DNA of 16,991 nucleotides from Bacilli bacterium. GTDB lineage: Bacteria; Bacillota_I; Bacilli_A; Haloplasmatales; Haloplasmataceae. The stretch lies in NCBI GenBank assembly GCA_012513195.1, contig JAAZCR010000118.1:1-16991 (forward strand), written 5' to 3'. Shown one piece after another: positions 1-16,538 of this stretch; the first letter of the stretch is position 1; each line of letters opens with the position of its first letter. Position numbers and translations under genes: made by a program. The notes under the pieces were generated by a model. The model was not told the origin of the DNA. It did not search any database and was given only the letters and a program-made list of their open reading frames with translations.

Positions 1-905
1 GCTTCACCATCGACGATGATAGCATCTTTTCCACCCATTTCCGCAATTACTCGTTTCAACCAGATTTGTCCTGGTTGAACTTTACTTGCGCGTTCATAAA
101 TTTCAATACCTACGTCTTTTGAACCAGTGAAGGAAATGAATCTGGTCTTTGGATGTTCAACGATGAAGTTACCAATTTCACTACCTCTACCAGGGATGTA
201 GTTAATTACCCCATCTGGTAGTCCTGCTTCTTTCATTAATTCCATAAATTTATAAGCGATAACTAAAGTGTTAGATGATGGTTTGAGAAGTACTGTATTA
301 CCACTTACCACTGCTGCACTAGTCATACCTGTAAGAATGGCTAGTGGGAAGTTCCAAGGGGTAATAATCGCACCTACACCTAGTGGAATATAACGATATT
401 CATTTCTTTCTAAGTTCTTCCTACTTTGAACCTTATCATCAATTCTTTGTAGTTCTAAAATTTGTCTACCATAATATTCTAAGAAATCAATCGCTTCTGC
501 TGTATCTGCATCAGCTTCAACCCATGGTTTACCTGCTTCTAAGGTCATGAGTGCACTATACTCATGTCTTTTCCTTCTTAAAATCGCTGCTGCTTTAAAT
601 AAAATATCAGCTCTTACGCTTGGACTAACTTTACTCCAAGTCTTAAAGGTTTCTAGTGCCACTTCCATTGCGGTTTCTGCTTCTTTGATACCTGCTTGGT
701 GGATGTAACCAATAACTTCTTTATAATTTGCTGGGTTGTAAGAAGCTAAAACCTTACCTGTTTCAATCTTCTTACCACCAATAATTAATGGATAAGTTTG
801 CCCTAAAGTACTACGCACTTTTTCTAAAGCTTGTTTGTACTTTTCTTGATTTTCCACCTTACTAAAATCCGTTAATGGTTCTGTTTGGTAAGGATAAATT
901 GCCAT
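1..905 (-). CDS. rocA: 1-pyrroline-5-carboxylate dehydrogenase (partial, C-terminus outside window)
   Basis: NAD-dependent aldehyde dehydrogenase oxidising P5C/glutamate semialdehyde to glutamate, the second step of proline catabolism. About 301 codons are present. The start is ATG at 905, behind an AGGGAGATGA ribosome binding site and 14 bases after the upstream stop. Visible landmarks are PWNFP near residues 183-187, the NAD-binding KPSS near 208, FTGSKDVG near 259-266, and the RocA-type block EMGGKDA near 289-295, which contains the conserved Glu. By recall it aligns along its whole length with Bacillus RocA (about 515 residues), including the N-terminal segment typical of the PutA/RocA branch. 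The catalytic Cys would lie beyond the left edge, so completeness cannot be judged. It is the last visible gene of the operon starting at 4206; that position behind an amino-acid dehydrogenase complex is the main reason to assign the complex to proline. Confidence 0.93.
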
Positions 906-919
906 TGTCATCTCCCTTT

Positions 920-2062
920 CTATACAACTGATTTTTCGATCACAATATCTCGTGCAGTTTTGAACCGATCAATATGTAAATCGGTTATATCAATAGTCAA
1001 CGGTTCACCTAAGATAATTTCTGATAACAGTAAGCCAGTCATGGGCGCAAACATAAAACCATGCCCACTAAAACCACAGGCTACATAGAATCCTGGTAAA
1101 TCCGTGGTACCTATGATTGGTTGTCTATCAGGACTCATATTATAACTACCTGCCCATTGTCTGATTACACGTAAATTACCAATGGGAGGAAGTAGCGTAC
1201 AAACAGTTTTGGCCATTTCATCAAGGAATTGCCAACTTGATTCGATATTATGACTAGGTTTTTCAAATGGATTACTTCTTCCCATCAAGAAACTGCCATG
1301 TGGAACTTGTTGACAATAAATGTTCATGCCAAAACTCATGACCATTGGCCCTTGGATTTTTTCAACTGGCTCAGTTACTAAGATTTCATGGCGTTCGGCA
1401 TACACTGGTATAGCAACATTTACCATATCACCAATTTCTTTCGCATAGCCACCCGCCGCATTAATCACATTGCTTGTATGGATTTCATGATTAGTTGTGA
1501 TAACTTTTTCAATTTTATCATTCTTCACAACAATACTTTTAACTTCTTCTCTAAATAAAAAGGTTACACCTAAACGCTTGGCAGCTTGATAATAAGCATC
1601 GGTCATTGTAAAGGGATTCAAATGTCCATCAGTTGGACAGAAAGTCGCACTTAAAATAACATCGGTATTTAAGTGCGGTACGATTTCCTTTGCTTCTTCT
1701 TTCGTGATTTTTCTTGATGGTATCCCTAAACTGTTTTGTAAAATGACATTCTTCGCAAACTGCTTATCCTCTTCTTCATTTACCGCAACAATTAAATACC
1801 CTTCTTGTTTAAATTCAATATCCCCTTGATAACCTAATTCATCCTTAGCGATGGAGAAAAAGTCAATACTGGCCTTTGCTAAACGACAATTCATTTCGGT
1901 ACCCCATTGTTGGCGGACACCAGCACCACACCGTCCTGTCGCACCAGCGGTTAAATAATGTTTTTCAACAACGATAATATCTTTAACACCTTTTTTCGCT
2001 AGATTATAAGCGATACTACAACCACTAATGCCAGCGCCAATAATCACATAACTAGCTTTCAT
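920..2062 (-). CDS. DAO-family FAD-dependent amino-acid dehydrogenase, probable catalytic (beta) subunit of proline dehydrogenase complex
   Basis: FAD enzyme of the glycine/D-amino-acid oxidase family (relatives: sarcosine oxidase beta, HcnC, beta subunit of archaeal dye-linked L-proline dehydrogenase). Numbered from the ATG at 2062 (380 residues), it has the FAD loop GAGISG at 9-14, an acidic residue (E33) ending the second strand, [13 protein letters not shown] near 303-315, and the C-terminal flavin-contact motif GFSGHGF near 330-336. A GTG nine bases upstream keeps the frame open, but it lies inside the GAGGGTG ribosome binding site, so I prefer 2062. That leaves an 11-base overlap with the preceding gene. 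Inferred role: oxidise proline to P5C and pass electrons to the partner subunits. Adjacent rocA supports proline; sarcosine, D-proline, hydroxyproline or an opine remain possible substrates because the fold does not fix specificity. Family certain, substrate inferred. Confidence 0.85.
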
Positions 2063-2333
2063 CGCAAGCACCCTCTTTTATGGCGTTGAGTTTTACCCCC
2101 ATCGTTAAGGGACGTACTTTTTGCGTTTTCACTTCTTCTATCGGAATATTTAAAAACTTACTTACTTCCCGTTGAATTAGCTGCATACATGTTGTCCCTT
2201 GACATGGACCCATACCTACTCGTAATAATCTCTTTAGTTCTTCAATATTGGTATAACCTCGTTCAAGTAATTGGTGAATTTCTTCTAAAGTAACATCCTC
2301 ACACCGACATATAATAATGTCTTTCTTACTCAT
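2052..2333 (-). CDS. BFD-type [2Fe-2S] protein, small subunit of the dehydrogenase complex
   Basis: A 93-residue protein that is almost entirely a BFD-like (bacterioferritin-associated-ferredoxin) [2Fe-2S] domain. Cys9 and Cys11 form CRC, and Cys44 and Cys49 form GPCQGTTC, the usual CXC...CX4C ligand set with a helical segment between. In many HcnB/sarcosine-oxidase-alpha-like proteins this domain is the C-terminal part of the large NAD/FAD subunit; here it is a separate gene. ATG at 2333 overlaps the end of the preceding gene by 8 bases, implying translational coupling. It is probably an electron-transfer subunit between the two flavoproteins. About 10 kDa, similar to the small delta subunit recalled for Thermococcus proline dehydrogenase. 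Fold assignment is firm; membership in the complex follows from the operon. Confidence 0.85.
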   Translation of the reverse strand: MSKKDIIICRCEDVTLEEIHQLLERGYTNIEELKRLLRVGMGPCQGTTCMQLIQREVSKFLNIPIEEVKTQKVRPLTMGVKLNAIKEGACDES

Positions 2334-2811
2334 AATCCTGACTCCTTATCGTAACAAACTCATATAATAACTCTTTATCAACTAAAACTTGGACTAATTG
2401 GGTTTTATCTTGACGTGGTGTTAAGGTAACTTTTTCAATATAGGCTTCACCAATTACTTCACCCTTCCGATTTACCGCATGCCAAAGTTCTCCCTGTTTA
2501 GGTATGGGTAAAAACTCATAAGGAATCTTGAAACGGACTTTATCTTCTAATACTTCACAAACCGTAATCGCAAGTCCTGGACAACTATAAACGCAAATAC
2601 CACAACCAGTACATTTATCGAAATCTACCACGGGAGTATTATTGATATCTTCACCAATTGTAATGGCTTTAAATGGACAACTTGTGCTACAGGGATTACA
2701 AGGAATCTTCTCATAACATTCAACAATCGCTTTTGGTTTAACTAATATCTCAAGACTAGGAAACTTTGACTTTACTTGCTCAGGGGAGGGATAACCATAT
2801 TGATTTAACAT
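2326..2811 (-). CDS. Ferredoxin-like protein with two [4Fe-4S] sites, electron-transfer subunit
   Basis: A 161-residue protein with eight clustered cysteines. Cys32, 38, 41 and 45 (CX5CX2CX3CP) would bind one cluster. Cys67, 70, 73 and 77 (CX2CX2CX3CP) bind a second of classical form. The first site has five residues, not two, between its first two cysteines. Residues about 1-30 and 85-161 are not ferredoxin; the tail reads as beta-strand rich with no motif I recognise, and may be a docking domain. ATG at 2811 overlaps the preceding stop by 7 bases. About 18 kDa, close to the gamma subunit recalled for archaeal dye-linked proline dehydrogenase. Likely carries electrons from the flavins to the outside acceptor, which the sequence does not identify. 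Confidence 0.82.
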   Translation of the reverse strand: MLNQYGYPSPEQVKSKFPSLEILVKPKAIVECYEKIPCNPCSTSCPFKAITIGEDINNTPVVDFDKCTGCGICVYSCPGLAITVCEVLEDKVRFKIPYEFLPIPKQGELWHAVNRKGEVIGEAYIEKVTLTPRQDKTQLVQVLVDKELLYEFVTIRSQDYE

Positions 2812-3902
2812 ACCTCTTTCACCCCTTCTAATTTAGCCAGACCCTTTCTAATCTTTTCGCCAAAAGGTCCACTACGTAATATGTCTAATTGTTTGCGTAA
2901 ATCTACCATCAATTCATCATATTGTGGATGCACTTTACCGAGTTTTTTAGCAGCAGCAAGTCCCGTTATATAACCTTCTACCATCGCACTTGATGCTTCT
3001 TCAATACCACTTGCATCTCCACAGGCATAGACTCCTTCAATAGTGGTCTCATAATCTTTTGAAAGTACTGGTACTAATCCCCCTAATTCTCCAACATACT
3101 TTAATTCGCAACCAATCATCGCAAGAAGATTAGTCAATGGACTTAAACCAACTGCTATACATACCGCATCAACTTCATATTCTTTTTCAGTACCTGGAAT
3201 TTCTTCCCATTTTTCGTTTAGCCTTACTGTAACGATTTTTTCAACTTTATCTTTACCAATCGCTTTTTTTATCGTACATGAAGTAATAATATCTACACCT
3301 AAGCGACGTAATTTCGAAGCATGTACTTTATAACCGCCGATAACTTTTGCGGCTTCAATCACCGCAAGTACCTTAACTCCCGCTTGCATCAACTGATAAC
3401 TAACGATTAAACCGATATTACCACTACCGACCATGACGATTTTTTCGCCTGGTTTTACGCCGTAAACATTCATTAATGTTTGCACAGCACCGGCACCATA
3501 AATTCCTGGTAAATCGTTATTTTCAAACGCTAAAACTTTTTCACTCGCTCCTGTAGCGACAATGATAGCCTTCGCTTGTACTTTTCGATAAGTTTCTCCT
3601 GTTAACACTGTTAAAACTTTATCTGAATATAACCCAACAACAGTAGAATTATCCCAAATTTCTACTAAATCAGGATATTTCTTAACATCATCGATGAGTT
3701 TCTTCGCAATATCAAAACCCCTCGTTTTCGCATATTGTTTTTCACTACCAAAAAACATATGCGTTTGCTTAATTAATTGCCCACCTAATTGGGGATTTCG
3801 ATCGATAAGCAACACTTTTTGGCCTGCTTCAGCTGCCATCTTGGCGGCACATAAACCGCTAGGTCCTGCACCGATGATGACCAAATCCCTATTTAAGATC
3901 AT
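2805..3902 (-). CDS. NAD(P)/FAD-dependent oxidoreductase, HcnB / sarcosine-oxidase-alpha type (alpha subunit core)
   Basis: A 365-residue two-dinucleotide flavoprotein of the pyridine nucleotide-disulfide oxidoreductase superfamily. The FAD loop GAGPSG is at 11-16, the ATGAS strand near 116-120, the NAD(P) loop VGSGNIG at 158-164, and the second FAD contact YACGDASG near 292-299. No redox-active CXXC follows the first FAD loop, so it is not a disulfide reductase. It matches the flavin core of HcnB/opine oxidase A/PdhA-type subunits, but its N-terminal [2Fe-2S] and C-terminal BFD domains are encoded separately by the flanking genes. With the 105-residue partner it reaches about 470 residues, the size recalled for the archaeal proline dehydrogenase alpha subunit. 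ATG at 3902 overlaps the previous gene by 14 bases. Probably accepts electrons from the DAO subunit; whether it reduces NAD or a quinone/dye acceptor cannot be read from sequence. Confidence 0.85.
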   Translation of the reverse strand: MILNRDLVIIGAGPSGLCAAKMAAEAGQKVLLIDRNPQLGGQLIKQTHMFFGSEKQYAKTRGFDIAKKLIDDVKKYPDLVEIWDNSTVVGLYSDKVLTVLTGETYRKVQAKAIIVATGASEKVLAFENNDLPGIYGAGAVQTLMNVYGVKPGEKIVMVGSGNIGLIVSYQLMQAGVKVLAVIEAAKVIGGYKVHASKLRRLGVDIITSCTIKKAIGKDKVEKIVTVRLNEKWEEIPGTEKEYEVDAVCIAVGLSPLTNLLAMIGCELKYVGELGGLVPVLSKDYETTIEGVYACGDASGIEEASSAMVEGYITGLAAAKKLGKVHPQYDELMVDLRKQLDILRSGPFGEKIRKGLAKLEGVKEVC

Positions 3903-4206
3903 ACAGTTCCCCCTTATTCGTTTGTGTTTCGACTTTCATTCCTTCCTTTAATAATGTGATACATGTTTTGACATTAGGTACACCATCGACAATCATGTGA
4001 CAACTCGAACAATTCCCAATCGCACAATAAAAGCCTCTTGGTCTTTTGTGCTTAATGCTTACGGAAAACTCTTTAACTCCTAAAGCACTTAATGCCGAGG
4101 CGATAGTGTCTCCCTCATACCCATAAACTTCTTGACCATTGAAAGTAAAGCGAATAATTTTCCGTTCTTTCGAGAAATCAAGTATCGGATGTTCTTTGAT
4201 TCGCAT
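3889..4206 (-). CDS. [2Fe-2S]-binding protein, HcnA-like first gene of the dehydrogenase operon
   Basis: A 105-residue Fer2_4/HcnA-like domain. Cys61, 66, 69 and 82 give CX4CX2CX12C, the plant-type [2Fe-2S] ligand pattern, after a beta-grasp stretch (IIRFTFNGQEV) near 17-27. The longest open frame starts at a GTG at 4215, but that GTG is part of the ribosome binding site GAGGTG. ATG at 4209 and ATG at 4206 follow; 4206 has the better spacing (6 versus 3 bases). It is the first gene of the operon, directly behind the promoter with the cre site. In relatives the domain is either a separate small subunit (HcnA) or fused to the N-terminus of the alpha subunit. Likely part of the intra-complex electron path. 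Confidence 0.83.
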   Translation of the reverse strand: MRIKEHPILDFSKERKIIRFTFNGQEVYGYEGDTIASALSALGVKEFSVSIKHKRPRGFYCAIGNCSSCHMIVDGVPNVKTCITLLKEGMKVETQTNKGELYDLK

Positions 4207-4225
4207 CATCTTCACCTCATCCCTT

Positions 4226-4254
4226 ATTTTAACATAAAAGCGTTTTCATTAAAA
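4226..4254 (-). promoter_or_regulatory. Extended -10 promoter of the proline-catabolism operon
   Basis: Reading the minus strand, TGTTAAAAT is an extended -10 (TG-N-TAAAAT, hexamer at 4226-4231). Seventeen bases upstream is a weak -35, TTTTAA (4249-4254), next to the exoA stop codon. The predicted transcript would start near 4219, leaving a very short leader of about 10-13 bases before the ATG. No terminator separates exoA from this promoter, so some read-through from cobB-exoA is possible. Confidence 0.6.
4235..4248 (-). promoter_or_regulatory. CcpA-type cre site in the promoter spacer
   Basis: The minus strand reads TGAAAACGCTTTTA. It agrees with the catabolite-responsive-element consensus TGWAANCGNTNWCA at every defined position but one (the C of the terminal CA is T). 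It sits between -35 and -10 of the operon promoter, where a bound repressor would block RNA polymerase. Known: CcpA with HPr-Ser-P binds such sites when sugar is plentiful. Inferred: proline catabolism here is carbon-catabolite repressed. No ccpA gene is visible in the window. Confidence 0.65.
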
Positions 4255-7227: not shown

Positions 7228-7271
7228 AAAAATATCTCACAACTATTAAAGAATAGTTGTGAGATATTTTT
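7228..7271 (-). terminator. Long perfect-stem terminator overlapping the end of the membrane/TPR gene
   Basis: Arms 7228-7247 and 7252-7271 form a perfect 20-base inverted repeat around a 4-base loop. Its upstream arm encodes the last residues (KKYLTTI) of the preceding protein, whose tandem stop TAATAG starts in the loop. The downstream minus-strand side reads ATATTTTTC, a short T run. The coding sequence therefore has to fit both the hairpin and the peptide. Confidence 0.85.
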
Positions 7272-8445
7272 TAGCCTCATTTCTTAATGTCTCTAAGGGG
7301 TGATTATCATTGATAATATCTTCTAATAATTCCGCTGCTTTATCATACTCTTTATTTAAATAATAGTACTCAGCATGAATCATTTTATTAATAAGCGTAT
7401 TTATTCTATCCTGATTGTCTAACGGAAAAGCATTTAACACTCTAATATCAGGATTGTTGTTCTTCATCATTTGATAATAAAGTAGTATACTATGTAGATT
7501 ATGCAAGGTAAACTTATAGACTTTATTAGAAAATAATTCATTAATTAGATTAATGCATATATCATAGTCTTCATAACAAGCATGATAATCAATTTCGACT
7601 AGTTTATAGATTAACTTATCAATGTCAGGATCATTAGGATTAATATTCTTAAACATCGTTTCCGCTTTTTGAAAATCGTGATTCATTAATACATCAATAT
7701 ACAATAAATCGATTTTACTGATTGTTTCTGGATGTAAATGATTTTCTTTTAAAAATTCAAACTTTTTCCTTAATTCATCTAAATCTAAAGTATCAGCATA
7801 TTCTTTTAAATATTTTGAAATTAAGTTTTGTTGTTTGTATGATAAACCAAACATTACAGCGAGGAAAATGTCAATTAATATTATAATATACAAGAATTTA
7901 AACTGTACAACTGGCACGAAAAACAATCCAAACAACATTAAAACAAATGCACCTTGAACAATATACACGTCTCTTCTAATCAACCAACCTTTAGGTAAGT
8001 TCTTAGGTTTAGATTTGTCTATTTCTACAATACTTTGAATATCAGTTTTCATCGTTTTACTTTTAAGTAGTACATTAACAAATACATCTAATAATAATGC
8101 GACTACATAGAGTGCACTAAAAGTATAGATAATAATAATCATTTCAACTATACCTTTATTGATATATGCAGAAAGATCTAACGCAAAATAAAGGGTAAAG
8201 CATATATAACCAGCGATATTGTAAACTTTATTTTGATATTTCTTAAATATATTATATAAAAACAATATGGTATGACAGGCCAATAAACTAATTATACTTA
8301 CCTTGCCAAAAATGTTAAAGTCAGTGATGAGATCATTTGAAGGTGAATCAACTTGATTATTTGTAAAGGATGCGATGATGATAATAATAATTGATATTGT
8401 TATAGGTAAGTAAAATCTAAGCCAAAATTGCTTACTTCGATCCAT
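7246..8445 (-). CDS. Membrane protein with C-terminal TPR-like helical domain, function unknown
   Basis: Not recognised as a named family. The first 200 of 399 residues contain about six hydrophobic segments (roughly 12-28, 46-66, 75-92, 100-125, 160-180, 182-201), with a charged loop at about 126-158. Residues about 210-399 are soluble and made of helical pairs. The last is a clear TPR-type motif (AEYYYLNKEYDKAAELLEDI), and an earlier one reads LMNHDFQKAETMFKNINPND. This suggests a membrane-anchored protein-interaction platform facing the cytoplasm; that is inference. ATG at 8445 follows an AAGAGATGA ribosome binding site. It has its own promoter and terminator, and neither neighbour hints at a pathway. 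Confidence 0.75.
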   Translation of the reverse strand: MDRSKQFWLRFYLPITISIIIIIIASFTNNQVDSPSNDLITDFNIFGKVSIISLLACHTILFLYNIFKKYQNKVYNIAGYICFTLYFALDLSAYINKGIVEMIIIIYTFSALYVVALLLDVFVNVLLKSKTMKTDIQSIVEIDKSKPKNLPKGWLIRRDVYIVQGAFVLMLFGLFFVPVVQFKFLYIIILIDIFLAVMFGLSYKQQNLISKYLKEYADTLDLDELRKKFEFLKENHLHPETISKIDLLYIDVLMNHDFQKAETMFKNINPNDPDIDKLIYKLVEIDYHACYEDYDICINLINELFSNKVYKFTLHNLHSILLYYQMMKNNNPDIRVLNAFPLDNQDRINTLINKMIHAEYYYLNKEYDKAAELLEDIINDNHPLETLRNEAKKYLTTIL

Positions 8446-8489
8446 TCTTTTTTCATCTCTTTCCTAAATGTTTACATTCAATCATCATA

Positions 8490-8518
8490 ATATTAACATA
8501 TATATAATATTTACTCAA
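8490..8518 (-). promoter_or_regulatory. Putative promoter of the membrane/TPR gene
   Basis: On the minus strand, TTGAGT (8513-8518) and TAATAT (8490-8495) are 17 bases apart. The spacer ends in TG-T, giving an extended -10. Confidence 0.5.
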
Positions 8519-8540
8519 ATATTTTTATATCACATAAATA

Positions 8541-8574
8541 ATAAATGAGTTTGATTTGTGTCAAACCCATTTAT
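8541..8574 (-). terminator. Terminator of the phosphoribosyltransferase-like gene
   Basis: Fourteen-base arms (8541-8554 and 8561-8574) around a 6-base loop pair fully except for one G-T wobble. The minus-strand tail is only moderately T-rich (TATTTATG), so termination may be partial. The hairpin starts 22 bases after the stop. Confidence 0.7.
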
Positions 8575-8596
8575 GAAATACACTTATTAGATATTC

Positions 8597-9232
8597 TTAA
8601 TAGCGTGATTTATAAAGATCATATTTATCATCTTTAGAATAACCAATTGTATATAATACGACTCGCTTAGCTCCTAAACTTAATAAAGCTTGGATGCAGT
8701 CTTCATGCATGTTAATGTTTTTAGTATAAAGGTCATCGATTAAGATAATTTCTCTGCCTTTGATTTTTTCTTCATCGATTTGACACGTATTTAACGTTAA
8801 ACCAGGGAAGACAACATGCATACTGTATCCGGGTAATATATGCGTAGTTTGGGAATCTTTAATTCTAACTATACAATCCGTACCATCTTCAAAACCATCA
8901 AGTTTAGAAAGAGCAATTTTAATTGCTTCTTTAAACATTAATTGTTCAGGATTATATGATTCTAACGTTTTAGCTCTAGGTACAATTACTACTAAACAGT
9001 TTTCCAACTGTTCTTCTTCTTTTACTAATGGTAAATCCTCAATCACAATGTCCACTACTTTATTTTGAGCTTCAATTAATTCTGGTAAAGAATAACTATT
9101 ATTATCATTCTTTAAGATATTAATAAAATCTGGATTACCCGGCCGATTAAAACCAATAAAATATTGATGGTAATATCCATTAACACTTACATCTAAATGT
9201 GTGTTAGGTTCAACAATATACTTTTCAACCAT
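8597..9232 (-). CDS. Orphan phosphoribosyltransferase-fold protein (ComFC/type I PRTase-like)
   Basis: 211 residues. The type I phosphoribosyltransferase hallmark is at 162-174: a hydrophobic strand and acid pair, IILIDDLYT, then a loop and the helix EDCIQALLSLGAK leading into a last strand (RVVLYTIG). Earlier elements also resemble ComFC-type proteins: the strand VVIVPRAK at 81-88 and VRIKDSQ at 122-128, comparable to their R-rich TxxQ segment. The PRPP loop is unusual: TKNINM where active enzymes have TTG-type Gly/Thr residues, so PRPP binding may be altered. Residues 1-75 match nothing I know, and there is no zinc-finger. The longest frame begins at a TTG at 9253, but GGGGG just upstream of ATG 9232 marks the better start. 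No purine, pyrimidine or competence gene is nearby, so the substrate is unknown. Confidence 0.72.
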   Translation of the reverse strand: MVEKYIVEPNTHLDVSVNGYYHQYFIGFNRPGNPDFINILKNDNNSYSLPELIEAQNKVVDIVIEDLPLVKEEEQLENCLVVIVPRAKTLESYNPEQLMFKEAIKIALSKLDGFEDGTDCIVRIKDSQTTHILPGYSMHVVFPGLTLNTCQIDEEKIKGREIILIDDLYTKNINMHEDCIQALLSLGAKRVVLYTIGYSKDDKYDLYKSRY

Positions 9233-9278
9233 TTTATTCCCCCGTTTATTCAAATATTATTAATCTATGACAATTAAT

Positions 9279-9284
9279 ATTATA
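9279..9284 (-). promoter_or_regulatory. Putative -10 element of the phosphoribosyltransferase-like gene
   Basis: A perfect TATAAT on the minus strand about 46 bases before the start codon. No convincing -35 is seen at 16-18 bases. The rest of the gap between this gene and the permease terminator (about 9285-9413) holds no open frame. Its only palindrome is TAGTTAACTA at 9366-9375. Confidence 0.4.
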
Positions 9285-9413
9285 CTAATCATTTAATATA
9301 GTATACCAAATATTATCACCCTTAAGCAATAATAATCAGTATTTATTTTCACAATTTTAACATGATAGTTAACTAACTAATAATATTGTAAATTTAAATC
9401 TCTTTTAAGTAAA

Positions 9414-9438
9414 AATAAGTGGTATAAAACCACTTATT
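9414..9438 (-). terminator. Terminator of the ABC exporter operon
   Basis: Ten-base perfect arms (9414-9423, 9429-9438) with a 5-base loop, followed by TTTTTAC on the minus strand. It begins 3 bases after the permease stop. Confidence 0.85.
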
Positions 9439-9441
9439 ATT

Positions 9442-11004
9442 TTATAAGGGGAGATCTTTTTCATTGAAACGTTTGATACCAATTATGTATGTAATTAATC
9501 CAATAAATAGGAGGATAAGAAGTTTCCAAAGATAATTATTGGTGCCTTCGATAATGCTGTTAGTATCGAATAAGGTAATAATTGATACATAGTTGAAGTA
9601 ACGCATTGCTTCAATTCTAATTGCGCTAGGAATGACTGGTGAACCAAATAGTCCTAAAATCGTCGCTACTAAGAAGAACATCGTGAGTCCACCTCCAATA
9701 CTCATCGCATACTTACTACGATTAAACCAACAACTAGATAAGAAGCAAATTCCGGATATTGCCAACATTGTGATAAATGCAGATAGATTAAGCTTTAAGA
9801 GTTGCATATAAGTTATCTTGATCGCATCTTTCACTATGGATAGGCTTATTATACTTGTTAATGTCATTAGGATGTACATTACTAGTAAAGCGCTAATTAG
9901 ATAACTCATTTGGGTAATAGTGACTTTACGACGTTTGGTTGGTGTTGATAAAACAAAGGCCATGGCACCAGAATCTACTTGCCCAGCGATGAGGTTATTT
10001 GCGGTCATTATCACGAAAATGATTGGTAATAGTAGTCCAGATATTCGGTAGAAAATGGTACCAATAACTAAAGTGCTTACCTCCATATCACCAAGTTCGG
10101 TTAATGCTTCTGATACTTTTTTGGGCAAGCTATCTAGTAATGTTTTACTACGTTCTTGAATAATACTAGTAACTTGCTTTTCTAATTCACTTTGTATTTG
10201 CTCATCTGTATAATCAGGATATTTTTCTCGTAGTTGATTTTCTTTAACTTCTAACTCTGCTCTGAAAGATACAATAGCGCTATAGGATAATTCATAAATT
10301 CTTGCCTTAGTAAAATAGTCTGATACATTAATCGTTTTATTTTTATTTGTAAAGCTTTGTTCATGGAAAACATCTTGTAAAACGCTGGGAATATAATTTG
10401 TCGCAAACTCCGTAACATTAGTCGAACCCGAATTTACATAAGCATTTATTGCCACGGAAATAAACACTTTTGCGGTTTGAGCAGCTTCTTCACCATCGGT
10501 TTCTAGCACTTGTTTGTATAATTCTTCTGCTATGAGATTTAAAATATACTCTGAAACTTTCTCTCTTGAGTAATCTTCACCTTGAACAAGATAATAGTTT
10601 AGAAAAGTATTTATCGCTAATTGATATTCAGCAGGTTGATTGTTTGTTAAAACTTGTCGTGCTTCTTCATCAGTATATCCTTGTTGAAGAAGATTCTTGT
10701 AAGTGTTAATGATATAGTTTTTCTGGAAAGTATTTAAGCGCACATTTAACAAATCATATAAATTATTAAAGTTTTCTAGCGTTTTATCGGTTAGATTATA
10801 GTACTCCATCGACTTTTGTTCGATGTTTGATTCAATTGCATCTCGAATGAACATATCAGCCATCGAATCACGTATTTCACTCACACTTAATCTACCTAAG
10901 ACAATAATGATAATTGCTAACATGATGCAGTTGATGGCTGTAACGAATACCCATGTACCTAAGTTTGCTTTGGCGGATTGTTTATATAGCGGTTTACTAA
11001 TCAT
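9442..11004 (-). CDS. ABC-2 type exporter permease with large extracytoplasmic helical domain
   Basis: Membrane subunit of an ABC exporter, 520 residues. One transmembrane helix at about 18-37 is followed by roughly 270 mostly helical, charged residues (39-312). Five further helices follow (about 312-335, 366-390, 403-425, 436-456, 492-510). GAMAFVLSTPTKRRKV at 346-361 resembles the cytoplasmic coupling segment of ABC-2 permeases in low-GC Gram-positives. The large domain between helices 1 and 2 would lie outside the cell; residues about 245-300 look coiled-coil-like. The start ATG overlaps the stop of the ATPase gene as ATGA. It is the only permease beside two ATPases, so it may homodimerise over an ATPase heterodimer. 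Substrate unknown; a drug, peptide or lipid is typical for TetR-controlled exporters. Confidence 0.85.
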   Translation of the reverse strand: MISKPLYKQSAKANLGTWVFVTAINCIMLAIIIIVLGRLSVSEIRDSMADMFIRDAIESNIEQKSMEYYNLTDKTLENFNNLYDLLNVRLNTFQKNYIINTYKNLLQQGYTDEEARQVLTNNQPAEYQLAINTFLNYYLVQGEDYSREKVSEYILNLIAEELYKQVLETDGEEAAQTAKVFISVAINAYVNSGSTNVTEFATNYIPSVLQDVFHEQSFTNKNKTINVSDYFTKARIYELSYSAIVSFRAELEVKENQLREKYPDYTDEQIQSELEKQVTSIIQERSKTLLDSLPKKVSEALTELGDMEVSTLVIGTIFYRISGLLLPIIFVIMTANNLIAGQVDSGAMAFVLSTPTKRRKVTITQMSYLISALLVMYILMTLTSIISLSIVKDAIKITYMQLLKLNLSAFITMLAISGICFLSSCWFNRSKYAMSIGGGLTMFFLVATILGLFGSPVIPSAIRIEAMRYFNYVSIITLFDTNSIIEGTNNYLWKLLILLFIGLITYIIGIKRFNEKDLPL

Positions 11005-11903
11005 ATTACCTCACCTCTTCTGATTAACTCATTGAAGTGTCGTTCAAGGGTGTATTTAATCTCCGCTATAAACTTAACTTGATAATTAGTTAAGTCATTA
11101 AACAACATCTTAATCCTATCTTTCTCGATAGTTATTGTCACTTGGTTATATGTTTCCTGGTCACGAATTATTTGATAGTTTAATCTTTTAAAGTTTAAAT
11201 AGTCATCTCGATTAGTAAACTCAATTTTAAAATCAGTGACCTTACGATTCTTAATATCATCTAACTTAACAACATCAACAATTCTTCCATTGTTTATTAG
11301 CGCCACGCGATCACACGTTTTCTCTAACTCTTCATAAACATGGCTACTCATGAAAATCGTTTTTCCTTTAGCCTTTTCCGCTTTAATAATATCTAAGAAA
11401 CTCACCCGCATTAAGGGATCTAATCCAGTAGTTGGCTCATCTAAGATAATAATATCATTATCCGCTAATAAACTCGCCACAATCGCGGTTTTTTGTTTCA
11501 TTCCTTTACTCATACGCTTTAGATTAGCACTAGGGTCAAGTTGCAATTTCTCAATCAAATAATTGGCATAACTTAAATCTTTTACACCTTTAAATTCAGC
11601 GATAGCTTTGAGAAAATCAGTACCGCTCTTATAATCAGGGAACCCAATTTCACCTGGTACATAGCCTACAAATTGCTTAATCCTAGCACTATCTTTCCAT
11701 GCATCCATACCTTTTACAGTAATACTTCCTTTATCAGGTTTGATAAACCCCATAATTGTCCGAATGGTTGTAGTTTTTCCCGCACCATTCGGACCGATAA
11801 ACCCTAACATTTCCCCCTTATAAATAGATAAATCTATGTCAAATATACCCCGTCCATTTCCAAAGTCTTTCGTTACATCTTTGATTTCTATGACTTTTTC
11901 CAT
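11001..11903 (-). CDS. ABC exporter ATP-binding protein 1 (BcrA/CcmA-like)
   Basis: Cytoplasmic ATPase, 300 residues. Walker A GPNGAGKT is at 37-44, signature MSKGMK at 131-136 (a degenerate LSGGQ, normal for BcrA-like exporters), Walker B IIILDEPT at 151-158, and the switch His at 188 in SSHVYEE. Residues about 220-300 form the variable C-terminal domain seen in drug-export ATPases. ATG at 11903 has a GGAGGTG ribosome binding site and overlaps the upstream ATPase by 16 bases. The stop is TGA, the only one among the 15 stops I could read, and it sits in an ATGA overlap with the permease. All catalytic motifs are intact. Confidence 0.95.
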   Translation of the reverse strand: MEKVIEIKDVTKDFGNGRGIFDIDLSIYKGEMLGFIGPNGAGKTTTIRTIMGFIKPDKGSITVKGMDAWKDSARIKQFVGYVPGEIGFPDYKSGTDFLKAIAEFKGVKDLSYANYLIEKLQLDPSANLKRMSKGMKQKTAIVASLLADNDIIILDEPTTGLDPLMRVSFLDIIKAEKAKGKTIFMSSHVYEELEKTCDRVALINNGRIVDVVKLDDIKNRKVTDFKIEFTNRDDYLNFKRLNYQIIRDQETYNQVTITIEKDRIKMLFNDLTNYQVKFIAEIKYTLERHFNELIRRGEVI

Positions 11904-12823
11904 TGGATGGCACCTCCAAAGTCGCGGTCCTCTTTATAGTACTTCATGAAATAATCCTCAAGTGTTTCTTTTAATTGACTAAAACTACGAAAATGGACAT
12001 GCGACAAAGCTTTGATGAGATAATTAATATTCTCATCATTAATATTTATTAATAAATGATTATCTTCTTGATTAATAATGGTAAATTTATCACTTTTCTC
12101 ATATAGATTACGAAAAACATGCAAATCGTCTAAACTAGAAAACTCGACTTCATATTTCTTATTCTTACTATGTTTCAAATCCGTCGCATAAAATTCCGCG
12201 ACAATTTTGCCTTCTTTAATAATCTCAATGCGATCACATGTTGCGTCGACTTCGCTAAAAATATGACTAGACAGCAGGATAGTTTTGCCACGTTCTTTTT
12301 CTTCTTTAATAAAATCGATAAAAACTTGCTGCATCTTTAAATCCAAGCCACTTGTGGGCTCATCTAATATTAAGATTTCTGGATCGTTCATAAAAGCTGC
12401 GACAATCGCTAATTTTCGTTTCATTCCTAAACTCATGCGTTTAGTTTCTCCAGTTGGATCGACTTCAAATAAATCACATAAATATTTAATATATTTATCA
12501 TCTTTAACTCTCTTTAGTTCTTTTATCATTTCGATGAATTCATAACATGTTAGGCCTTCTGGTAATGCTATTTCTCCTGGTAAATAACCTATTTTATCCA
12601 TAAATTTATCATAGTTTGTAAAAGTTTCCATCCCAAGAATCCGTGTATGACCTTTATCTGGCTTACTAAAACCTAACAAATGTCTAATGGTCGTTGATTT
12701 ACCTGCCCCATTAGGCCCTAAGAATCCATACACTTCACCTTCATGTATTTGAAAAGAGATATCAAAGACACCTCGACCAAAACCATAATCTTTTGTGAAG
12801 TGCTCTACTTCAATCTTAATCAT
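11888..12823 (-). CDS. ABC exporter ATP-binding protein 2 (BcrA/CcmA-like)
   Basis: Second ATPase of the exporter, 311 residues from ATG 12823. Walker A GPNGAGKS is at 36-43, signature MSLGMK at 130-135, Walker B ILILDEPT at 150-157, switch His187 in SSHIFSE, and a C-terminal variable domain from about 215. It is clearly paralogous to the downstream ATPase, including the N-terminal FG.GRG.FDI segment, but diverged, which fits a heterodimer. The frame is open to a further 5' start at 12865, but a near-perfect AGGAGGTCAAG ribosome binding site lies directly before the ATG at 12823. First gene of the operon, divergent from the TetR gene. Confidence 0.95.
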   Translation of the reverse strand: MIKIEVEHFTKDYGFGRGVFDISFQIHEGEVYGFLGPNGAGKSTTIRHLLGFSKPDKGHTRILGMETFTNYDKFMDKIGYLPGEIALPEGLTCYEFIEMIKELKRVKDDKYIKYLCDLFEVDPTGETKRMSLGMKRKLAIVAAFMNDPEILILDEPTSGLDLKMQQVFIDFIKEEKERGKTILLSSHIFSEVDATCDRIEIIKEGKIVAEFYATDLKHSKNKKYEVEFSSLDDLHVFRNLYEKSDKFTIINQEDNHLLININDENINYLIKALSHVHFRSFSQLKETLEDYFMKYYKEDRDFGGAIQWKKS

Positions 12824-13619: not shown

Positions 13620-16538
13620 TTATAGCCTACTCGTTACTAAGTGTTCGAAGTAGTACTTAATATCACTAAGGCTATTCAAGTAGTTAGCTGATTTGTATGC
13701 ATGAATAACTGTTGCGACATCAGTTTTACTTGTATTGCTAAATTCTTCGTAAGCTTCAACAAGTGCTGGATCTAAGTTTACAGCATCTTGGAATTTGAGA
13801 ATTTCAGCAACTAATGCTTCAGCTGTTGTTGTAGCCATAATTTGTTCATAAGCATATTCATAGTAGTCTTTTAGTACATATGTGAACGTATTTTCTGGTG
13901 TGACGTTATACATTGAACCCCAAGTATAGCCTTGTTCATCATAGAGCACAATGTAGAATGTAACTTGGCCAGCATCTAAGAACATTGCTGTTACAGTTGT
14001 ACCGAAGTCAATTGTCCAAGTTTGAGTATCAGCATCATAAGTGACTGTTACACCGAATGCTTCAAACTCAGCTTTAGTTTCTAATGAACCATATGGATTA
14101 TCTTCACTTGCGTATACTGAGAATTCTGGTAATGTTCCTTCGAATGAATGGTCTACTTCGAGTTTGAATAATGTTTGATCGCTTGCTTTAATAATCCAGA
14201 CGAACTTATCTTTGACAAGGACAAAATCATTGTCATGTTCAATTGGTTCAACTACTTCAACACCGACTAATTCTGGATTATATAAGTCACTAATCAAGAT
14301 TGATGCTAATGCATCCATGACGTCGTAAATATCTGTGAATGGAGCAAATTCTAATAACTTAGCACTAATCTTAGTTAGTTTGTCAATATTATTAGCATCA
14401 ATGATAACATTGATTTCAGTTACTACTTCTGTATATGTATCATCTACAAGGTCTGGATAGGTACCAAGGCTGAGTAATTCTTGACGATATGCGAATAATT
14501 CAGGGAATCTTTCATTGATGATATCAAATACTGTTTCTTCATCTGTCGCATTATTCAATAATACTGTAGTCATGTATTTGTAGTATTCTTTTTCAGCCAT
14601 GAATTCGAATGCAACTTTTACATCTTCAAGTGAGCCAAGTAAATCAGAATGAGATAATACTATAATATGATGTAATACATTTGCACGATAATCACTTGGA
14701 TCTGGTAACTCATTGAAGAGATCCCATGCTTCTTCAGAAATGTTAACAGCGTCTTGGTAAGTAGTTAAAGCATTTAACATTCCATTAGTTGTTTCAGCAC
14801 TCTTAATTGCGTTCAATGCTTTTTCATAGTAGTCTTCAAATTCATATACGAAGGTATTTTCTGGAGTTGTTCCATACATTGTACCCCATGTATTACCATA
14901 GATATCATGGATGACAATGAAGAATCTGACTTGTTGAGCAGCTAAGAAGAAATTAGCAGTTATTTCAGCACCAAAGTCGATTGTCCAAGTTTGTGTATCA
15001 GCATCAAATGTTACTGATGCACCGTATGCTTCAAATTGATTCTTAGCATCTTCTGAACCGTAAGGATTATCTTCATCAGCATATACATTAAATTCAGGTA
15101 AGATACCTTCTAATGAATGGTCAACTTCTAACTTGTAGAGGTTCTTATCAAATGCTCTTACGATTAATACGAATGACTCACCGTCTTTAATGACGACTTC
15201 GCCTTCTTCAGGTTCAACACTGATTAAAACTGGATCTGTCTTATCAACTACTGTGAGTTCAATTATTTCAACGAATTCACTGTCTTCATCACGAACAGTA
15301 ATTGTAACAGTTCCTGCCTTAATCGCTGTAATCAAACCATCAGCATCAACAGTCGCAATGGTTGGATCACTAGTTTCAAATACTAGTTCTGGTAATAATG
15401 CATCATCTGGAACTGGAGTTACTTCAATTTGATATGTTTCTTCTTCTTCAAGTTCTAATTCATACTCAGTCAGAATTATTCCTTCTAATGGAATTAGTTC
15501 CCATCTAGCATATAAGTCAATATCTCTAACTACTGGAATGAAGTTAGTGAAACGACCTTCAACTGGTGAATCTTCTTCTGAACTATACCAACCTAAAAAT
15601 CTGTAACCTAAACGTTCTAGAATTGGTAAGTTAGTTGTATGACCTTTAACAACTTCTTCTGTGAATACCGCATCACCATTGTTTGGATGGAAGGTTATCG
15701 TGACTGTTTCTACTTCGGCTAGACGACCGTTAATTAAATCACTTAACCATTCTTCCTCAGTTTTATCGTAGTTTGGATTATATAACTTATATAATTCGTA
15801 AGCTGATAAACCGTTTAATCCGTCTTCCCCATCTTCTCCCCTAATATCATCTAATGAGAAAAGATTATCCCATGCGTCGTCTGGTTCACCTACATAACGC
15901 CATTGAAGATAACCATCATTGAGACGGAATTCAACTTCTCGTCCATCTTGGCCGTCTTGACCATCTTGACCAGCTGGACCAGTTATTTCACTAAGTGGAA
16001 TCAATTGTGTCCAGGTTTCTTCACCTTTGTATCTCCACTCAATGTAGCCATTTTCGACGCGGAATTCAACTTCTCGTCCGTCTTTACCATCTTGACCGTC
16101 TCTTCCGACGACTTTACCAAGGGTAATTACAGTATCGTTATCCAGAGTAATAACTAAATTGCCATCATCATCAATTTCGATGGCTTTAATACCAATACCT
16201 GGATCTCCTTGATCACCTTTATCTCCTTTTGGTCCCTTTATAACACCCAAGTTCTTTGTGGAGTTATCATCGTAGGTAATGACTAGTTCGTTATCGTCGT
16301 TAACATCAATGGATCTAATACCTTTACCATCTTGTCCTTTTAGTTGGTCGATAGCAATTAGGTTGTTCCATTGTCCATCACCTACTCTCCATTGAATATA
16401 GCCATTACTTACTCGCATGCTTATGTCAGCTTGTACTGGAGTTGTAGTCTCAGTAGTGCTTGTGTTTTTGCACGCATAAAGTAATGCACTAAATACCACA
16501 GCAATTAGGATTAAAACAATCCTTTTAAATTTAAACAC
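13620..16538 (-). CDS. Large modular surface lipoprotein with collagen-like, InlB-type and BIG2 domains
   Basis: A 972-residue protein predicted to be lipid-anchored outside the cell. The signal peptide is about 1-22, with lipobox LYAC and Cys23. Then come short beta modules of two kinds. Type A (R.xNGYIxWR...W..LI.L..I.G) is at about 40-68, 156-187 and 201-233. Type B (I..I.ID..GNLVIT.D....LG) is at about 74-101 and 117-144. They are joined by collagen-like GXY runs (102-115, 145-154, 187-199, 234-243). A SAYELYK...TEEEWLSDLING motif follows at 245-271, an InlB_B/Listeria-Bacteroides repeat at 278-346, a BIG2 immunoglobulin-like domain at about 352-431, and two copies of a large C-terminal unit (about 455-755 and 773-972). 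The start is GTG behind AAAGGAGAGAG; no ATG is available. Probably an adhesin or stalk-like surface protein; the ligand is unknown. Confidence 0.9.
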   Translation of the reverse strand: MFKFKRIVLILIAVVFSALLYACKNTSTTETTTPVQADISMRVSNGYIQWRVGDGQWNNLIAIDQLKGQDGKGIRSIDVNDDNELVITYDDNSTKNLGVIKGPKGDKGDQGDPGIGIKAIEIDDDGNLVITLDNDTVITLGKVVGRDGQDGKDGREVEFRVENGYIEWRYKGEETWTQLIPLSEITGPAGQDGQDGQDGREVEFRLNDGYLQWRYVGEPDDAWDNLFSLDDIRGEDGEDGLNGLSAYELYKLYNPNYDKTEEEWLSDLINGRLAEVETVTITFHPNNGDAVFTEEVVKGHTTNLPILERLGYRFLGWYSSEEDSPVEGRFTNFIPVVRDIDLYARWELIPLEGIILTEYELELEEEETYQIEVTPVPDDALLPELVFETSDPTIATVDADGLITAIKAGTVTITVRDEDSEFVEIIELTVVDKTDPVLISVEPEEGEVVIKDGESFVLIVRAFDKNLYKLEVDHSLEGILPEFNVYADEDNPYGSEDAKNQFEAYGASVTFDADTQTWTIDFGAEITANFFLAAQQVRFFIVIHDIYGNTWGTMYGTTPENTFVYEFEDYYEKALNAIKSAETTNGMLNALTTYQDAVNISEEAWDLFNELPDPSDYRANVLHHIIVLSHSDLLGSLEDVKVAFEFMAEKEYYKYMTTVLLNNATDEETVFDIINERFPELFAYRQELLSLGTYPDLVDDTYTEVVTEINVIIDANNIDKLTKISAKLLEFAPFTDIYDVMDALASILISDLYNPELVGVEVVEPIEHDNDFVLVKDKFVWIIKASDQTLFKLEVDHSFEGTLPEFSVYASEDNPYGSLETKAEFEAFGVTVTYDADTQTWTIDFGTTVTAMFLDAGQVTFYIVLYDEQGYTWGSMYNVTPENTFTYVLKDYYEYAYEQIMATTTAEALVAEILKFQDAVNLDPALVEAYEEFSNTSKTDVATVIHAYKSANYLNSLSDIKYYFEHLVTSRL
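13623..15176 (-). repeat. Tandem duplication within the lipoprotein C-terminus (two units offset by 969 bases)
   Basis: Unit 1 encodes residues about 455-755 and unit 2 about 773-972. Both share [LF]KLEVDHS.EG.LPEF.VYA.EDNPYGS, then T.DADTQTWTIDFG, WG.MY..TPENTF.Y, and helices with YQDAVN/FQDAVN and L.SL.D[VI]K..FE. The first half keeps a constant offset of 323 codons, and the DNA is also similar (for example 14971-15006 against 14002-14037). Unit 2 ends early and lacks the last 100 or so helical residues of unit 1. Confidence 0.85.
15810..16235 (-). repeat. Region of collagen-like triplets alternating with small beta modules
   Basis: This segment encodes four short Gly-X-Y runs rich in QDG/KGD/EDG triplets, separated by type A and type B modules of 28-33 residues. 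The runs are 3-5 triplets long, too short for a stable isolated triple helix. They may act as linkers or assist trimerisation. Confidence 0.75.

Follow-up and report, generated by a model that had tools for sequence, protein, structure and literature searches.

A candidate PDH2-type L-proline dehydrogenase complex encoded beside rocA in a Bacilli bacterium and its relatives

The window analysed here, a 16,991-base contig (G000:C286) from the draft genome of a Bacilli bacterium (G000; 1.84 Mb in 314 contigs, 91% complete), encodes on its minus strand, from position 4209 to 920, five open reading frames (ORFs) with Fer2, Pyr_redox, Fer4, BFD and DAO domains, followed by rocA, the gene for L-glutamate gamma-semialdehyde or 1-pyrroline-5-carboxylate (P5C) dehydrogenase (P5CDH). 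We propose, with a probability of about 0.85, that this operon encodes a PDH2-type L-proline dehydrogenase complex that supplies P5C/glutamate semialdehyde to RocA. The main argument for this product comes from the partners of the complex, which act on aldehydes and comprise two P5CDH families and the unrelated aldehyde ferredoxin oxidoreductase (AOR). The proposal would give a function to an operon that is widespread in bacteria and whose DAO subunit often carries database names such as 'sarcosine oxidase subunit beta' or '4-methylaminobutanoate oxidase'. It would account for the conversion of proline to glutamate in a class of which a single genome among 296 sampled yielded PRODH, and extend to many bacteria an enzyme described from Thermococcales. 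It would also suggest a glutamate semialdehyde route through AOR and perhaps a new instance of amino acid oxidation coupled to NAD and ferredoxin.

A five-gene redox operon and its aldehyde-oxidizing partners

Neighbouring ORFs of the five-gene set overlap by 7-14 bases and start with ATG, and the gap between DAO and rocA is 14 or 8 bases, depending on whether rocA starts at 905 or 911. The preliminary description had reported five overlapping redox genes with rocA 14 bases on and subunits of 105+365, 161, 93 and 380 residues; coordinates, spacing and sizes all hold when the inner ATG starts are used. The features are as follows:

4234..4249, minus strand: cre-like site (putative CcpA operator) ATGAAAACGCTTTTAT, 16 bases, followed after two bases by a TAAAAT -10-like box (4231-4226)
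3889..4209, minus strand (start 4206 or 4209): Fer2_4 [2Fe-2S] subunit, about 105 residues; PF13510, 101 bits
2805..3902, minus strand: FAD/NAD(P) oxidoreductase (PyrR), 365 residues; PF07992, 124 bits
2326..2811, minus strand: ferredoxin subunit, 161 residues; PF00037
2052..2333, minus strand: BFD-like [2Fe-2S] subunit, 93 residues; PF04324 and PF17806 (Fer2_BFD/SO_alpha_A3)
920..2062, minus strand: DAO catalytic subunit, 380 residues (383 with the upstream GTG start at 2071); PF01266, 247 bits
3..911, minus strand: rocA (L-glutamate gamma-semialdehyde/P5C dehydrogenase), first 303 residues, the gene being cut by the contig end

The rocA fragment scores 457 bits against NF002852 and 402 bits against TIGR01237, with 303 residues against 511 model positions; the intact orthologue in genome G001 reaches 794 bits with TIGR01237 (cut-off 660). 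A second host contig (G000:C14:4636-5247) carries a C-terminal rocA piece. A search of the whole 91% complete host draft for PRODH (PF01619) gave no match, which bears out the earlier statement that PutA/PRODH is missing.

Throughout the sampled class, rocA is found only in company with DAO. Among 296 class genomes, searched at E <= 1e-60 for DAO and at E <= 1e-100 for rocA (TIGR01237), DAO is present in 51 and rocA in 49, and DAO is present in all 49 rocA genomes (Fisher p about 4e-54, a value that ignores kinship). Forty-five of the 49 pairs share one contig, their match ends 27-71 bp apart. Of the other four, G004 and G182 have a DAO match that runs out at a contig edge, where an adjacent rocA would escape notice, and G059 and G211 have the two genes on different contigs. 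This recurrence of the same gene set across the class indicates that the arrangement is not due to chance. DAO occurs without rocA in G021 and G083. Relatives of the G083 locus L050, namely L100 and L122, have rocA between DAO and the same downstream gene cluster, and rocA has perhaps been lost in G083. A weaker DAO relative (189 bits, below the 1e-60 cut) is present with no P5CDH match in two further class genomes, G174 and G187, as seen in a phylum-wide sample of 275 genomes that overlaps the class sample and hence offers no independent control. PRODH was detected in a single class genome, G042, which is 55% complete and lies outside the DAO and rocA sets, and in none of 50 named genomes that carry this DAO family. 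These 50 comprise 44 bacterial and six archaeal genomes, one of the archaeal ones (L063) with a two-subunit PDH1 type; three are Izimaplasma-type (L109, L122 and L124), and at least two apparently also belong to the class sample (as G059 and G193), because their rocA coordinates are identical or near-identical.

Outside the class, the complex repeatedly adjoins genes for aldehyde-oxidizing enzymes. The gene order of the window recurs among the best 80 of at least 544 confirmed loci from a scan of named genomes, whose sources include Thermococcales, Thermoplasmatota, Clostridia, other Bacillota, Thermotogota, Atribacterota and Izimaplasma-type bacteria, and judged by gene content the PDH2-type complex is widespread in bacteria. 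Partners were counted within 1.5 kb at 50 bacterial loci outside the class and at 24 archaeal loci. The complex adjoins P5CDH or AOR in 28 of the 50 bacterial loci, 11 with P5CDH (9 TIGR01236, 2 TIGR01237) and 17 with AOR, and AOR is also present at 1 of the 24 archaeal loci (L065). TIGR01236 was assigned by direct scan at L084, L087, L110 and L121 and by position of over-cut-off matches at L091, L093, L097, L125 and L134, and both TIGR01237 partner genes by direct scan. AOR was called for one representative (L112) from its hits in Pfam and the PDB, and elsewhere by similarity to it; L087 and L093 have an upstream gene of the AOR similarity cluster that falls outside the stricter count. In genome G021 (L047), where rocA is missing, DAO is directly followed by a ferredoxin gene and AOR, and clostridial loci such as L080, L086 and L112 likewise have AOR and a ferredoxin gene after the complex, with no rocA adjoining. 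From this context it is possible that AOR beside the complex acts as a glutamate semialdehyde:ferredoxin oxidoreductase.

Further neighbours recur at smaller numbers of loci. Genes of an M24 peptidase cluster, assigned by scanning one cluster representative, are present in six loci (L081, L082, L105, L111, L112 and L132), and at 3 of the 50 bacterial loci they are no more than 1.5 kb away; the M24 family includes prolidases. Pairs of GltA-type and sulfide/dihydroorotate dehydrogenase-like genes, which we take to be NfnAB-like, lie near the complex at L053, L068, L071, L072, L073 and L140. On two Haladaptatus plasmids (L145, 161-4483; L150, 146-4475), a lone DAO relative sits between ornithine cyclodeaminase-family and S9 peptidase genes, perhaps again a proline context.

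We found no description of the complex in bacteria among the listed titles and abstract openings of open-licence PMC literature. The available part of the C. sticklandii genome paper (PMC3091704) contains neither 'proline oxid' nor 'proline dehydrogenase', a term search of the main text of the first cultured Izemoplasma paper (PMC8397711) did not return 'proline', and the available part of PMC3045925 holds nothing on subunits or NADH.

Subunit architecture and DAO relationships

Subunit by subunit, the window operon matches the Thermococcus locus L077, which is called PDH2-type from its architecture, the characterised PDH2 enzymes coming from other strains. The L077 ORFs encode alpha (481 residues), gamma (174), delta (117) and beta (396), and the order of the alpha parts (Fer2 and FAD/NAD), gamma ferredoxin, delta BFD and beta DAO is common to both loci. 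The Fer2 subunit corresponds to the N-terminal domain of the archaeal PDH2-type alpha (54% identity to L077) and PyrR to its main part (51%), the ferredoxin subunit to gamma (38%), BFD to delta (65% over 49 residues) and DAO to beta (38%). The Fer2 and FAD/NAD parts are separate, overlapping genes in the window and one fused alpha in L077, and because they are unfused we call the window complex a bacterial variant of PDH2. The order and sizes that the preliminary description had given for the dye-linked L-proline dehydrogenase of Thermococcales (54, 43, 19 and 10 kDa; pdhA-pdhF-pdhX-pdhB) match the L077 operon. The small subunits also correspond to the ends of PDH1 alpha, in agreement with the figure legends of PMC4575208.

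Cofactor motifs are conserved across the aligned families. The Fer2 motif C-x4-C-x2-C-x11-12-C is present in 69 of 70 rows, and a second Rossmann motif, GSGNIG in the window and a predicted NAD site, is kept in 84 of 90 PyrR rows, the six others being five PDH1-type rows and L051. Both Cys motifs of the ferredoxin subunit occur in 81 of 81 rows, and its eight cluster Cys are predicted to bind 2x[4Fe-4S]. This subunit also has a C-terminal beta domain (AlphaFold model, pLDDT 94.9); a fold search with it gave no match at E <= 0.001, and the best hit, a bifurcating hydrogenase ferredoxin domain at E 0.035, was not used as evidence. In DAO, GFSGHG is present in 94 of 99 rows and RxW (Arg-x-Trp) is invariant in 32 of 32 aligned rows, the latter motif being assigned an FMN role in PMC4575208.

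Two of the loci depart from this architecture. L051 (G048, 7995-12111), a degenerate version, keeps DAO and rocA, with no Fer4 found, Fer2 and BFD lacking Cys motifs and PyrR lacking the second Rossmann motif; it may have been simplified independently in the manner of PDH1. Parabacteroides distasonis plasmid L146 (2639-5875) carries all five domains in window order in one 1078-residue chain, whose DAO part is very divergent (20% identity); in 72,556 plasmid records, the ferredoxin subunit matched nothing but this fusion.

Among solved structures, the window DAO is closest to the Pyrococcus horikoshii L-proline dehydrogenase in both sequence and fold, which supports the reading of the operon as a proline dehydrogenase in the preliminary description. 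Neither of the outcomes that would have refuted that reading was seen, given this closest structure and the lack of a PRODH match in the 91% complete genome. In a sequence search of the PDB, the beta subunit of the P. horikoshii enzyme (1y56_B) comes first at 260 bits, followed at a distance by dimethylglycine dehydrogenase (DMGDH; 123 bits) and SoxB of heterotetrameric sarcosine oxidase (116 bits), and it is also the top fold match of the DAO AlphaFold model built from 32 aligned sequences (pLDDT 93.5; TM 0.90, 37% identity). DAO scores equally against L077 and an Azospirillum opine-type protein (211 bits each) and 225-230 bits against PDH1 and DHVE2 proteins. Fer2, PyrR and BFD score lower against two opine-type loci than against L077, and Fer4 is unmatched in those two loci; the electron-transfer subunits, more than DAO, therefore link the window to PDH2. 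Plasmid loci with opine-type gene order served as stand-ins for D-hydroxyproline dehydrogenase (D-HypDH), HcnC and type-2 OpnDH, and DAO shares 24-31% identity with these relatives.

Phylogenetic analysis places the window DAO inside a supported clade of its own class, beside clostridial sequences, both in a first tree of 104 rows (DAO ORFs of 331-469 residues) and in a second of 37 of these rows plus four plasmid rows. The DAO tree that the preliminary description had suggested is thus available in part, with the clostridial placement resolved and the deep branches leading to SoxB and opine-type proteins not. The earlier term 'archaeal-type' is misleading as a label for the operon, which recurs with the same five genes in many bacteria and whose DAO nests with clostridial sequences, and an archaeal origin is not supported because the deep order of the DAO tree is unsettled.

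Proposed reaction, regulation and alternatives

We infer the substrate, cofactors, electron path, acceptor and regulation of the complex as follows. The DAO subunit, with FAD, would oxidise L-proline to P5C; electrons would pass, probably via FMN at the DAO/PyrR interface, to the BFD, Fer2 and 2x[4Fe-4S] centres, with the NAD-binding FAD module or ferredoxin as the final target. P5C would open to glutamate semialdehyde, which RocA would oxidise to glutamate with NAD+, and CcpA would repress transcription when better carbon sources are present. Direct feeding of P5C to RocA (channelling), as the preliminary description had it, would be a further assumption. The 16-base site at 4249-4234, which overlaps the putative promoter, matches the cre consensus. 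The 11-base cre core has one match in the whole window, at the operon start. Of 25 loci compared (the window, 18 class loci and six named Izimaplasma/Mollicutes-type loci), 16 carry the core at the operon start (about -200 to +20), where its frequency in these same loci would predict 0.0106 per locus; relatives have similar spacing between the cre-like site and the -10-like box. None of 39 other bacterial operon starts has the core. The host has a LacI-family protein (G000:C98) that is a putative CcpA orthologue: it reaches 328 bits with the CcpA model, below the cut-off of 442, which none of 40 searched relatives attains either.

A more speculative possibility, which we hold to be doubtful, is that PDH2-type complexes of anaerobes are NAD- and ferredoxin-linked and perhaps electron-confurcating proline dehydrogenases, with AOR supplying the reduced ferredoxin in Clostridia and G021. 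The proline/P5C potential is too positive to reduce NAD+ alone, and a ferredoxin-driven reaction is therefore attractive: proline, reduced ferredoxin and 2 NAD+ would yield P5C, oxidised ferredoxin and 2 NADH, and the adjoining AOR of Clostridia and G021 would oxidise glutamate semialdehyde and yield reduced ferredoxin. Pointing in this direction are the second Rossmann motif, kept in most PyrR rows and absent from five PDH1-type rows, L051 and four two- or three-subunit plasmid relatives, the extra 2x[4Fe-4S] subunit, the AOR adjoining in 17 of 50 loci and the NfnAB-like genes near six. If true, fermenters would have a PRODH-free proline-to-glutamate route that passes proline electrons to NAD.

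Several observations weigh against a proline dehydrogenase supplying RocA. The co-occurrence counts are not phylogenetically independent, the host genome is a 91% complete draft, and G083 has the complex with no rocA match. Neither P5CDH nor AOR lies within 1.5 kb at 22 of the 50 other bacterial loci, some of which have short flanks, and P5CDH lies within that range at none of 24 archaeal loci. A search at E <= 1e-80 found no P5CDH in 29 of the 50 named genomes, among them 23 of the 44 bacterial and all six archaeal ones. The substrate may differ at loci that have no aldehyde-oxidizing neighbour. SoxB is the second fold match of the DAO model, with equal TM-score and 25% identity, and both DAO trees leave the deep order unsettled, including the positions of the Azospirillum DAO and of the long-branched SoxB. 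According to PMC4575208, L-proline is no substrate for BjOpnDH2, a member of a subfamily reported to lie near the archaeal enzyme, and homology alone therefore cannot fix the substrate.

Three other explanations were weighed. A hydroxyproline dehydrogenase, improbable in our view, would convert trans-4-hydroxy-L-proline to 3-hydroxy-P5C for oxidation by RocA to 4-hydroxyglutamate. P5CDH enzymes are able to use hydroxy-P5C as a substrate. PMC4575208 describes D-HypDH as a homologous enzyme of several subunits; the closest solved structure to DAO, however, is an L-proline dehydrogenase, and proline racemase/hydroxyproline epimerase (PF05544) reaches its cut-off in none of 80 genomes (51 DAO-positive, 29 not), a negative that speaks against the D-hydroxyproline route and does not bear on direct use of the L form. 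Sub-threshold PF05544 matches of 22-25 bits occur in G002, G003 and G006. Oxidation of sarcosine or another N-methyl amino acid, as some database names imply, is very improbable: the equal TM-score of SoxB and sub-threshold TIGR01373 and TIGR01372 matches speak for it, but DAO reaches only 160 bits with TIGR01373 (cut-off 529) and so falls short of the SoxB model, no SoxD or SoxG match appeared among the window ORFs scanned against Pfam, and the neighbours found are P5CDH or AOR. The TIGR01372 match of PyrR and Fer2 (160 bits, cut-off 1164) is an unfair test, since the model describes a 996-residue alpha. There is similarly little chance that RocA serves an arginine/ornithine route beside a functionally unrelated complex, for although B. 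subtilis RocA serves both arginine and proline catabolism, rocA was never found without DAO in the class sample (49 of 49, adjacent in 45), and in other groups the complex has a P5CDH of a second family beside it.

Other parts of the window hold a 972-residue lipoprotein-like protein (13620-16538), perhaps a surface protein, in which a Big_2 domain and a Listeria-Bacteroides repeat accompany collagen-like stretches of GxDG. Two ORFs of 399 and 218 residues (7246-9253), which match no Pfam family at E <= 1e-5, lie where G+C is low (25-30%).

Comparison with known systems

The PutA/PRODH enzymes (PF01619), which act with P5CDH, carry out the same pathway step proposed for the window complex; the PRODH fold is a TIM barrel and differs from DAO, and PF01619 is the family without a match in G000. 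The three-subunit enzymes flavin opine dehydrogenase, D-HypDH and HCN synthase have homologous DAO, FAD oxidoreductase and [2Fe-2S] parts, as set out in PMC4575208. Unlike the window, the opine-type plasmid loci examined have no ferredoxin subunit and an alpha without the second GxGxxG motif; the same pattern search found a single GxGxxG-type motif in four two- or three-subunit plasmid relatives. The Sulfurisphaera dye-linked L-lactate dehydrogenase was considered as a four-gene parallel and set aside by its description rather than its sequence, the purified enzyme being alpha3beta3 with FMN according to PMC8704557.

P. horikoshii PDH1 (alpha4beta4; 1y56) has a catalytic DAO like that of the window, at the TM-score and identity given above, whereas PDH1-type loci encode two subunits with no ferredoxin gene, and the second Rossmann motif of the window PyrR is missing from their alpha. 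An alpha-beta-gamma-delta form of the archaeal enzyme is mentioned in PMC8704557. The closest likeness is to the heterotetrameric, dye-linked PDH2/DPDH of Thermococcus profundus and P. horikoshii, which has the same functional blocks in the same order; compared with it, the window splits alpha into two genes and adds rocA and a cre-like promoter site.

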